This document shows positions 2,261 to 39,899 of a stretch of 47,630 nucleotides of DNA, one piece after another. The DNA lies in assembly GCA_030614785.1 (NCBI GenBank), contig JAUWTJ010000026.1, forward strand, positions 1 through 47,630, written 5' to 3'. The notes below the pieces were generated by a model. That model was not told the origin of the DNA. It ran no database searches and saw only the letters and a program-made list of their open reading frames with translations. Every line of letters starts with the position of its first letter. Within the stretch, counting starts at the first letter, position 1. The DNA is from Alphaproteobacteria bacterium. Lineage in GTDB: Bacteria; Pseudomonadota; Alphaproteobacteria; M2410. The position numbers and the translations under genes were made by a program.

Positions 2261-3886
2261 ATGAAAGGCCTGATGCAGCCAAACCCGATGAACCTGGTTC
2301 ATGTTCTGGAGCATGCCGCGCGGTTTCACGGGCGCCGGGAAATTGTTTCCAGCACTGTGGAAGGCGGCATCCATCGCTACACCTACTGCGACGCTCTGGC
2401 GCGAACAAAGAAGTTTGCCAATGCGCTTCGGAAGCTGGGCGTTGATGTTGGTGACCGGGTCGGGACGCTGGCGTGGAACGGTTATCGTCACTTTGAAGCC
2501 TGGTATGCAATTTCGGGACAAGGTGCGATTACACACACGGTGAACCCGCGACTGTTTCCTGATCAGGTCGCATATATCATCAATCATGCGGCGGACAAGT
2601 TTCTCGTGTTGGACACAACCTTTGTCTCCCTCGTTGAGGGTATTCAGGATCAGCTGCGGTCGGTTGAGGGTTTTATCATCCTGGCCGACCGTGAACACAT
2701 GCCGCAGACCAGTCTTAAAAACGTTCATTGTTATGAGGATCTCATTGCCGGCGAGCCGGAAGAGTTCGCCTGGCCGGAGCTTGACGAGGAAACCGCCAGT
2801 TCGCTTTGCTATACATCGGGGACGACAGGCAATCCCAAGGGCGTCATGTATTCGCACCGATCCAATATTCTGATGGCCCTTGCGGTCAACGGGGCGGAGG
2901 GCTTTGGACTGACGACCATGGACTCGGTGCTTATGGTGGTGCCGCAGTTTCATGCCAATTCCTGGGGTCTGGTCTACAGCGCACCGATGTCCGGAGCGAA
3001 GCTGGTTCTGCCGGGGCCAAATCTCGACGGCAAATCAACCTATGATCTCATTACCAATGAACAGGTGACTTTCTCGGCAGCGGTGCCGACGGTGTGGAAT
3101 ATTTTCATCGCCTATCTGGAAGAGATCGGCGGCAAACTTCCCACGCTTCGCGAGGTTGTTATCGGTGGCTCCGCCGTGCCTCGCTCGATGATCAAGATCT
3201 TCGATGAAAAATATGATGTGAAGGTTCTACAGGCCTGGGGGATGACCGAAACCAACCCGCTTGGCACGCTTAATCGCACGGTTCCCGAGGTTATGGCGCT
3301 CGATCATGAGGCGCAGCTTGACTACGCCACCAAACAGGGCCGGCCACTTTTCGGTGTGGATATCCGGATTACCAATGAAGCGGGCACTTCCCTGCCACAT
3401 GACGGCAAGACACCGGGGCGGCTTATGGTGCGTGGTCCCTGGGTGATCCAGTCCTACTACGGGCTTGAGGAAAGCGTTCTTGATGCGGATGGCTGGTTTG
3501 ATACCAGTGATATTGCCACCATCGACGAGCTTGGCTTTATGCAGATCACCGACCGGGCCAAGGATGTTATTAAATCAGGCGGCGAATGGATCTCCTCGGT
3601 TGATCTTGAGAATACTGCCATGGGCCATGAAAGCGTTGCCATGGCGGCGGTGATCGGGATGGCGCATCCCAAGTGGGACGAGCGACCGCTGCTCATCTTG
3701 CAACTGCGCGAGGGCGCGTCAGTGTCAAAGGATGAGATGCTGGACTATCTGGGTAGCCGCGTTGCCAAGTGGTGGCTGCCGGATGATGTGGTCGAGATCG
3801 ACGTGATCCCGCTTGGCGGCACCGGCAAGATCAACAAGCTGTCGCTGCGCGAGACCTTCAAGGATCACGTGCTGCCGACTATTTAG
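2261..3886 (+). CDS. Long-chain/medium-chain acyl-CoA synthetase (FadD-like AMP-forming ligase)
   Basis: ANL-superfamily enzyme, 541 residues, the usual length for bacterial FadD-type ligases. It activates a carboxylic acid with ATP to an acyl-adenylate and then to the CoA thioester. Visible motifs: the AMP-binding P-loop [16 protein letters not shown] (about 184-199), A5 motif [12 protein letters not shown], the DGWFDTSD hinge-proximal motif, the region [17 protein letters not shown] and the C-terminal GGTGKINK carrying the adenylation Lys. No signal peptide, so cytosolic. ATG 2261 is preceded by GGGAG at suitable spacing. The substrate (fatty, terpenoid or sterol acid) cannot be read from sequence, although the window is rich in genes for branched-chain CoA catabolism. 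A small membrane protein follows 12 bp downstream. Confidence 0.92.
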
Positions 3887-3898
3887 TGAGGATCAGGT

Positions 3899-4228
3899 GT
3901 GAACCAGGAAGAAATGCAAGATCGTCTACGATGGGTCGGAGAGGGTGTCGCTCTTCCATTTGCCATCTCGTGCGGGTTTTTTGTTATAGGGATTGTTGGA
4001 TCGTTGTTTTTGGGTGGATCGAAGCCACTGTCGGAGCACATAACCATCGGTTGGTTGTCTGTGAAATACCTTTCTGCGGCGGGTGTTGTTGGTGGCTTCA
4101 GTGTTTCTCTTTTTGCGTTTGGACTTACGATGGAGGTGTTTACCCCAAAAGGGGGGCACCGTCTGCTAGGATGCGTTATCTACCTTGTGGCACTTGGTGT
4201 TGTGCTTCTGAACACTCCGTGGGAATGA
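3899..4228 (+). CDS. Small integral membrane protein, unknown function
   Basis: Predicted 109-residue protein with a short charged N-terminus (MNQEEMQDRLRWVGEG) and three hydrophobic stretches at roughly 18-38, 52-77 and 88-105, consistent with a three-helix inner-membrane protein. The GTG start lies 12 bp after the ligase stop and has GAGGA upstream, so it is probably co-transcribed and perhaps translationally coupled. I recognise no family. A competing frame one base away (3886-4254) has Cys/Arg-rich noise composition. It could be a membrane accessory to fatty-acid activation, but only the gene order suggests this. Confidence 0.6.
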   Translation: MNQEEMQDRLRWVGEGVALPFAISCGFFVIGIVGSLFLGGSKPLSEHITIGWLSVKYLSAAGVVGGFSVSLFAFGLTMEVFTPKGGHRLLGCVIYLVALGVVLLNTPWE

Positions 4229-38162: not shown

Positions 38163-38384
38163 CTAGTGGACGCGGTTTGTCGCACTTTCAGACAGTTTTT
38201 CGCAGGCGAATTCTATTTCGTAGTCATCGAGGAGATCCTCGATGCCATTTGCAAGATCCATTCGCCTTTGAGAGACCGCTTGAACGGCGAGAAATCTGAG
38301 ACACAGCATGATGCCTTCTATGCTTCCGGTCTTGCCTATTATGTTTGTAAACACTGTATCCATTGTCCTGTCTTCATTACTCAT
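38163..38384 (-). CDS. Small protein of unknown function, candidate quorum-sensing target
   Basis: Predicted 73-residue protein, mostly helical in character, with an acidic stretch IEDLLDDYEIEFACEKL and no signal peptide. No family recognised. It is supported by a good ribosome site (GGAGAG, 5 bases before ATG 38384) and by a 20-bp lux-box palindrome at 38459-38478, 74 bp upstream of the start, in the correct position for LuxR control. It is the next gene downstream of luxI on the same strand, so it may also be reached by read-through. The opposite-strand frame over the same bases (38166-38387) has no ribosome site. Existence is probable; function unknown. Confidence 0.6.
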   Translation of the reverse strand: MSNEDRTMDTVFTNIIGKTGSIEGIMLCLRFLAVQAVSQRRMDLANGIEDLLDDYEIEFACEKLSESATNRVH

Positions 38385-38458
38385 TGATACTCTCCATTAC
38401 CTGGTCGGTTGACCGTGAACTTATTGCTTCGTGTCTACCTTCTGAGGAACGTTCTGCG

Positions 38459-38478
38459 TAGTATCGGAACCGATACGC
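38459..38478. promoter_or_regulatory. lux box 2, upstream of the 73-residue gene
   Basis: TAGTATCGGAACCGATACGC, with a perfect core palindrome GTATCGGAACCGATAC. Identical at 16 of 20 positions to the box upstream of luxI (39148-39167). It lies 5 bp beyond the luxI stop codon, and could also act as a hairpin in the luxI transcript. Confidence 0.7.
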
Positions 38479-38483
38479 CGGAG

Positions 38484-39095
38484 TCAGGCAGCAACTTCAA
38501 TGCGTTGGGCGGGCTCCCAAAAAGATGCGTTCTGGCGCATTCTGGCGACAGTTTCCCTCGAGAATGGCTGGGTTTTGATGGCCATATGGGCTTCCCCATC
38601 AAACATTTTAATCTCTCCCAGTGGTATAAAAGGTTCGGCCTTTCGCTTGAGGCCCTGGCGAAAGATCCTGTGGGCTCCGAAGAACAGGGCCTGATTGGCG
38701 CCAAGATCGAGCAGATAATCCATACACCCGATCGAAAGACGCAGCCAGGCCATCCCCATATCCTCTTTGTTCATGGATTGATCGACCATGAACCGGGTGT
38801 TTTCGAAGAGTTTTGGTGATTTTGGCGCAGGCCTGTCGAGGAATTCAGGCCATAGTGTTTCGACCATATAGGGTGATGTGGTGGGCAAGAGGCGGCAGCA
38901 GGCGCGCGCACGTCCCCGATCATCACGCACCAGAACATAGTGGGCGACAGGCGTGTCAAATTCATCGAACTCCATGCTGTCATGGGTCCGTCCCCCGTCC
39001 CATGCTTGACGATCAATAAATTCTTTCTTGCGCAAATGGGCCTGATCGTAGAACGAGGACCCCGTCATTGTTTTAAAAGTGAATGTTTCAATCAT
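38484..39095 (-). CDS. luxI: Acyl-homoserine-lactone synthase (LuxI family)
   Basis: 203-residue autoinducer synthase that makes an N-acyl-homoserine lactone from SAM and an acyl-ACP or acyl-CoA. Conserved positions are present: Arg and Phe in LRKKEFIDRQAW with the Trp, Asp pair in EFDEFDTPVAHYVLV, Arg in ACCRLLPTTSPYM, and Glu-Arg in FENTRFMV. The C-terminal acyl-binding region (RQGLKRKAEPFIPLGEI) does not reveal the chain. The window's wealth of unusual acyl-CoA enzymes makes a non-standard acyl group possible, but this is only a thought. Start ATG 39095 is preceded by AAGGAGG with a 6-base spacer, embedded in a 10-bp inverted repeat. A lux box lies about 52 bp upstream. The partner luxR gene is broken. 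The symbol is the family name, not a species-specific one. Confidence 0.93.
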   Translation of the reverse strand: MIETFTFKTMTGSSFYDQAHLRKKEFIDRQAWDGGRTHDSMEFDEFDTPVAHYVLVRDDRGRARACCRLLPTTSPYMVETLWPEFLDRPAPKSPKLFENTRFMVDQSMNKEDMGMAWLRLSIGCMDYLLDLGANQALFFGAHRIFRQGLKRKAEPFIPLGEIKMFDGEAHMAIKTQPFSRETVARMRQNASFWEPAQRIEVAA

Positions 39096-39147: not shown

Positions 39148-39167
39148 TAGTATCGAAAGCGATACTA
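39148..39167. promoter_or_regulatory. lux box 1, upstream of luxI
   Basis: Perfect 20-bp palindrome TAGTATCGAAAGCGATACTA (8-bp arms, 4-base centre), the length and symmetry of LuxR-type binding sites, in the 85-bp gap between luxR and luxI. No good -10 hexamer is visible at the expected distance. Confidence 0.8.
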
Positions 39168-39180
39168 TTGTCTGATTGGG

Positions 39181-39899
39181 CTACTGATCATTGGGACGAA
39201 ACCAGTCGGGGCGTACGACGCCAAGTCCGACAAGTTTTACGATAGCACGTATGCGGCCGTTTTCTCCGGTCTTCTCATAGACTTCACCGAGGCGTTTGCG
39301 CACAGCAACTTCGCTGACGCCGCAAATATCCGCAGTATCCTGAGCAGACTTTCCTTCCGCAATCCAGTGAGCGTATTTCAGTTCTGCGGGCGTCAGCAAG
39401 TTTTTTTCCAGTTCGGACGATAGTTGCAGGCGCTGGCTGTGATAGAGGCCGGCGACGGCATTGAGTGCTGCAAGCTCGGCCCTGGTCGGGGCATCCGGAC
39501 GCCCGGAAAACGACATGGCATGGAAAGCGCCGGGCGAACGCAGGCAAAGCGAGACACCGTTTGTCAGGCCGGCATCATGGGCTTCGCTCAGGCAGAGACG
39601 TCCGCGATCAGTCGCCGCGGCTTCACAATCGCGCCACAGGATCGGAGCGGATGCGTAGGGCAACAGGGCAAAGACCGGATCAACACGGACACGTATTTTT
39701 CTTTGACATAGTGGGTCCACCATTCAGTGCTGGTGGTTGTGTAGATAAATGTGTCTGATACGACACCATTGCCATAGGTCACAAAGGGGTAGCCAAACAG
39801 CTCCCGGACGACTTCCAGGAACAGCTTGTCCAGGGCGTTGATGGATGTCTGGGCTTCATATTTTTCAGCAAACTTTGAAAACCCGCTCAGACCGTTCAT
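39181..39899 (-). pseudogene. luxR: LuxR family quorum-sensing regulator, interrupted by a frameshift
   Basis: The N-terminal autoinducer-binding part (from ATG 39899 with GGAGAGG upstream: FAEKYEAQTSINALDKLF... STEWWTHYVKEKYV) and the rest (RVDPVFALLPYASAPILWRDC ... HTH LTPAELKYAHWIAEGKSAQDTADICGVSEVAVRKRL) are in different frames, overlapping at about 39588-39723. Removing one GT from the GTGT at 39692-39689 (ACAC on the plus strand) restores KEKYVRVDPVF with the family's exact Tyr-to-Asp-Pro spacing. The conserved W, Y, D, P, W and G of the ligand pocket are all present. So this is either a recent inactivation, phase variation or a sequencing error. As written, only a 180-residue C-terminal fragment (start at 39723) or a truncated N-terminal product can be made. 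Confidence 0.85.

Follow-up and report, generated by a model that had tools for sequence, protein, structure and literature searches.

The window analysed here, a stretch of 47,630 nucleotides, is contig C60 of a 3.86-Mb draft genome (99 % complete) and carries an acyl-homoserine lactone (AHL) locus on its minus strand. Gene content and the named relatives of luxI indicate an alphaproteobacterial genome. The luxR gene (39181-39899, minus strand) encodes an autoinducer-binding regulator with the domains PF03472 and PF00196, its frame being broken near 39685 in the assembly. It is followed by luxI (38484-39095, minus strand), which encodes an acyl-homoserine-lactone synthase of 203 amino acids (PF00765, E 2e-19). 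The next gene after luxI, on the same strand and separated from it by a gap of 99 bp, is an open reading frame of 73 codons (38163-38384, minus strand), hereafter called orf73, whose product is described below as a putative CinS/MmaP-like small protein on the basis of the ORF itself, its relatives at other luxI loci and an AlphaFold model. A good ribosome binding site, GGAGAG (38390-38395, minus strand), can be read from the sequence 5 nt before the ATG codon, in agreement with the initial annotation, which had also placed orf73 next after luxI and 74 bp downstream of a palindrome.

Two lux-box-like palindromes are present at the locus. Box 1 (39148-39167), TAGTATCGAAAGCGATACTA, lies 5' of luxI and has perfect 8-bp arms. 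Box 2 (38459-38478), TAGTATCGGAACCGATACGC, lies 5 bp past the luxI stop codon and 74 bp before orf73, and is a perfect palindrome in its inner 6-bp arms only (GTATCG-N4-CGATAC; 7 of 10 symmetric pairs). The initial annotation had regarded this site as a second lux box identical to the first at 16 of 20 positions, which was confirmed. Box 2 differs from box 1 at 2 of 16 arm positions, compared with 5 of 16 for the next best site in the 47.6-kb window, and a site as near to box 1 as box 2 occurred in only one of 300 random windows matched to it in composition; the resemblance is not due to chance. In the whole 3.86-Mb genome, boxes 1 and 2 were the only sites with at most one mismatch among 14 positions. 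A wider regulon of such boxes was not indicated, the genome containing 11 sites with at most two mismatches compared with 19 for a reversed-pattern control, and no terminator, RNA family or consensus sigma-70 promoter was found at box 2. The exact box is not conserved beyond the host genome, where the remaining luxI loci have different palindromes or box-like sequences upstream. At the sister locus on contig C14 the small gene starts right at the end of the luxI stop codon, which leaves no space for a box.

The frameshift in luxR, which is absent from the initial annotation, lies at approximately 39685 in the conserved DPVF motif, where the intact paralogue from C14 aligns in two frames that meet (59 and 43 % identity for the two halves). 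Since both halves are otherwise open, the break is either recent in origin or an error of the assembly. Other luxR genes are present in the host genome and one of them could in principle act on the two boxes. A broken luxR in a conserved region, together with an orf73 that has no close orthologue, is what would be seen if the locus were decaying and orf73 and its box were remnants with no present role, but luxI, both boxes and orf73 are intact, the ribosome binding site of orf73 is good, the luxR halves are otherwise open and further luxR genes exist, and decay is considered very unlikely.

Direct searches with orf73 gave no match in Pfam, in NCBIfam, in plasmid sequences (tblastn), among 142 relatives or with patterns run against the genome contigs, and no close orthologue was found. 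Relatives emerged only once the ORFs following luxI had been collected, from luxI loci gathered by protein search in related genomes and by scanning 387 class members with PF00765 (58 genomes positive). A small ORF of one family follows luxI in approximately 30 of approximately 75 alphaproteobacterial luxI loci (counted by eye from ORF lists), in most cases within 60 bp of luxI and often overlapping its stop codon. The family is very divergent, with 59 to 108 amino acids, a recurring pattern (I..CL.YLA.EA......A..L..A.) and a helical hairpin as the structure predicted by AlphaFold, and it is absent from every library used, Pfam and NCBIfam included. The earlier statement that no family was recognisable is thus correct for these two libraries, but not when the other ORFs following luxI are considered. 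In the host genome a small ORF is found at all four luxI loci (C14, C59, C80 and, as orf73, C60), and a fifth, solitary family copy is located on C80, approximately 4.5 kb from luxI. An MmyB-like XRE gene (3233-4057, minus strand) precedes this solitary member (L184:2517-2798, minus strand) by approximately 0.4 kb.

The nearest relatives of orf73 occur in four species of one genus belonging to another order (G137, G224, G294 and G358), in each directly after luxI, the best having 41 % identity over 39 amino acids (E 4e-4). The motif S-[IL]-x-G-I-x2-C-L-x-F-L-A-x2-A is common to orf73 and these relatives. The frame is not lost in the nearest relatives, where dN/dS values of roughly 0-0.2 show purifying selection on the gene. 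Codon-position composition was also tried as a coding test for orf73, and was set aside as it fails to separate the sense from the antisense ORF. The suggestion of the initial annotation that orf73 encodes a quorum-controlled small protein, a dedicated target linked to luxI, gains support from the near-identical boxes, the linkage of the family to luxI and the purifying selection.

The assignment of orf73 to the family was assessed in several ways. Of the 2225 ORFs compared, 25 are family ORFs, and these accounted for six of the ten best matches of orf73, compared with at most three of ten for 100 shuffled copies of orf73 and at most four of ten for 150 unrelated ORFs. When the profile of the orf73 subfamily was compared with that of the remaining family, P was 1.4e-6 over 43 columns. 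With a stricter leave-out profile, orf73 had an E value of 0.5-1.7, and the ORFs ranking higher were themselves probable members. Both orf73 and the family member in the cinS position (see below) were top-ranked among approximately 2,200 ORFs in leave-out profiles, yet with E values of 0.12-1.7, and sequence support for any single pair is weak. Taken as a whole, orf73 very probably belongs to the family of small proteins encoded after luxI.

One family member may connect this group with a studied protein. The member from a Rhizobium-like genome (G391) is 94 % identical to a hypothetical protein of 67 amino acids encoded on plasmid pSK03 of R. leguminosarum bv. viciae BIHB 1148, on which luxR, a luxI encoding 221 amino acids and the 67-amino-acid ORF follow one another, with an overlap of 4 bp. 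The ORF, unnamed in the record, fits the position of cinS, the gene order matching the published cinR-cinI-cinS arrangement of Rhizobium leguminosarum (PMC4149787, PMC5977203). Reaching a named cinS through the pAt loci of A. tumefaciens was also attempted and abandoned, the gene arrangement there being different. The identity between orf73 and the CinS-position protein is 22 % overall in the family alignment, and their pairwise match is not significant; the two are connected by way of intermediate sequences. A published BLAST search for a CinS-like protein in Caulobacter found none (PMC10688885).

In the AlphaFold model of orf73, helices are predicted at residues 3-17 (with low confidence), 22-38 and 42-72. 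The predicted hairpin turns of orf73 (residues 39-41) and of the G391 protein (residues 30-32) occupy the same columns of the alignment. This shared hairpin is consistent with kinship to CinS and falls short of proof, because short helical hairpins are a widespread shape and no significant match emerged from the fold searches (nothing at E ≤ 0.001 in PDB or BFVD). A profile search of PDB gave weak helical matches only, of which the best natural one, the H-NS dimerisation domain (E 0.002), was taken as generic helix similarity. The sequence has no obvious signal peptide or membrane helix. The idea of the initial annotation that such a protein might be toxin-like has in its favour only the small size and the quorum-linked position; there is no match to a toxin family in Pfam or NCBIfam, an antitoxin-like partner gene is absent and the relatives occupy the position of a regulator, so that orf73 is extremely unlikely to encode a small quorum-controlled toxin or secreted factor.

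CinS and MmaP are both quorum-induced and have been shown experimentally to bind PraR, a regulator of the XRE type (PMC4149787, PMC10790750). CinS keeps PraR off the DNA (PMC4149787, PMC5977203) and works without AHL (PMC5977203), and it must have another partner besides PraR (PMC4149787). MmaP is encoded right behind luxI and binds a PraR orthologue, which was identified from the metK and tRNA-methyltransferase genes that follow it (PMC10790750). As in the case of CinS, the orf73 product is a small protein encoded directly after a luxI that is putatively LuxR-controlled, has the same predicted hairpin with a coincident turn, and occurs in a genome which also has PraR in a conserved gene context; it differs in its very low sequence identity and in gene arrangement, as cinS has a 4-bp overlap with cinI and is transcribed together with it, whereas orf73 is separated from luxI by 99 bp and has a lux box of its own. 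MmaP of Methylobacterium fujisawaense (mmaR-mmaI-mmaP), compared here by its published description, is a quorum-induced protein of 59 amino acids encoded immediately 3' of luxI, and its PraR orthologue adjoins metK and a tRNA-methyltransferase gene, as in the host genome, but mmaP is co-transcribed with mmaI, and MmaP is tied to swarming. With its own lux box rather than simple co-transcription with luxI, orf73 is unusual compared with both. SinI of Bacillus subtilis is likewise a small antirepressor, its target being an XRE regulator which controls biofilm genes, but it has no link to AHL, and CinS is stated to differ from it in structure (PMC4149787).

The host genome carries the row lnt-praR-metK-trmB, whose PraR shares 66 % identity with its counterpart in the Rhizobium-like genome G391, and four further PraR-like paralogues (five in total, on contigs C20, C127, C73, C1 and C9); there is no PraR-like gene within the 47.6-kb window. 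As PraR is widespread in the class, the presence of an orthologue is necessary rather than diagnostic for a protein of the CinS/MmaP type. In three lineages luxI and the small gene have a PraR-like XRE gene as a neighbour: in G283, where luxR, luxI, the small gene and the XRE gene form a single row, in the G137 genus, where a cytochrome P450 gene lies between luxI with the small gene and the PraR-like gene, and, more weakly, in G271. A PraR-like gene is also present at two luxI loci with no recognised small gene (G153 and G280). By a back-of-envelope estimate that takes the loci as independent and assumes approximately 2.5 PraR-like genes per genome of approximately 3.8 Mb, about 0.2 PraR-like neighbours within 2 kb would be expected by chance at the approximately 75 luxI loci, compared with five lineages seen; the survey of luxI neighbours looked for PraR-like genes and not for other XRE genes, and the comparison is one-sided. 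The small gene of G283 (L171:2946-3272, minus strand), between luxI and the PraR-like gene in one row, codes for the longest member of the family, 108 amino acids with an additional C-terminal stretch. In G153 one ORF (L087:1067-2968, minus strand) corresponds to a cytochrome P450 fused to a LuxI-type synthase, with the PraR-like gene adjoining.

Because the family includes the CinS-position protein and relatives of orf73 adjoin PraR-like XRE genes, an antirepressor is favoured over the signal-modulating or toxin-like product suggested in the initial annotation, and we consider it probable that orf73 encodes a quorum-induced antirepressor of the CinS/MmaP kind, acting on an XRE regulator of the PraR type. 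At high cell density, AHL made by LuxI would activate a LuxR protein, and LuxR-AHL would bind both boxes, raising the expression of luxI and, through box 2, of orf73. The separate box and the 99-bp gap would allow orf73 to be induced separately from, or on top of, read-through from luxI. The predicted hairpin protein of 73 amino acids would then bind the PraR encoded in lnt-praR-metK-trmB, or one of its four paralogues, and keep that regulator away from its DNA, with the result that genes under PraR control would shift with cell density; in the species studied these are adhesion, motility or secondary quorum-sensing genes. The genes, the two boxes, the linkage of the family to luxI and the presence of praR are the observed parts of this model. 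The weak similarity to CinS, the generic shape of the hairpin, the lack of a PraR-like gene in the window, the frameshifted luxR and the identification of CinS by gene order count against it.

The tight linkage to luxI and the shared box would also be in keeping with a protein that acts inside the lux circuit, binding LuxR as an antiactivator of the TraM kind or LuxI as a partner affecting its specificity or activity, and so tuning the signal. TraM of Agrobacterium and rhizobia is small, helical and linked to quorum sensing, and works through binding to a regulator, but its target is TraR itself. There are known cases of antiactivator genes close to luxI: on a Pannonibacter plasmid, luxI is followed by a TraM gene. 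The TraM models in Pfam and NCBIfam gave no match to orf73 at E ≤ 1, the studied occupants of the position, CinS and MmaP, act on PraR, CinS independently of AHL (PMC5977203), and family members are found apart from luxI as well, which makes a role within the circuit quite unlikely. Unlikely, too, is that orf73 encodes a CinS-like adaptor whose partner is another XRE-type or an unrelated regulator, not PraR-like: CinS itself needs a further partner (PMC4149787), the family is very divergent and the solitary copy on C80 lies near an MmyB-like XRE gene, but PraR-like genes were found by luxI in several lineages, even if only PraR-like ones were sought.

The CinS/MmaP kind of protein is already known, and CinS and MmaP are the two quorum-induced antirepressors studied by experiment that the literature searches brought up; what is new is orf73 as a member and the apparent breadth of the family outside Pfam and NCBIfam. 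The family profile suggests that such adaptors trail luxI in many alphaproteobacterial families and occur away from luxI too. Were this so, PraR-type XRE regulators would be a common output of AHL signalling, and the loci described here provide candidate pairs. More speculatively, and with considerable doubt, the four AHL systems of the host genome, each with a diverged CinS-like adaptor, and the one solitary copy might be wired to the five PraR-like paralogues as matched pairs, forming a parallel, insulated layer from quorum sensing to XRE regulators, and CinS-like adaptors might constitute a class-wide, unannotated family of antirepressors. The equal numbers, four luxI-linked small genes and a solitary one compared with five PraR-like genes, may be coincidental.

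Family-like small ORFs were also seen in other arrangements. Two of them (L077:272-478, plus strand, and L068:2537-2770, minus strand) lie upstream of luxR rather than downstream of luxI, and others are found apart from luxI (L197, L199, L201-L207 and L164). As read by eye from the neighbouring genes, those of L199 and L206 are near fabA-like ORFs and that of L164 is right behind a LuxR-like ORF.
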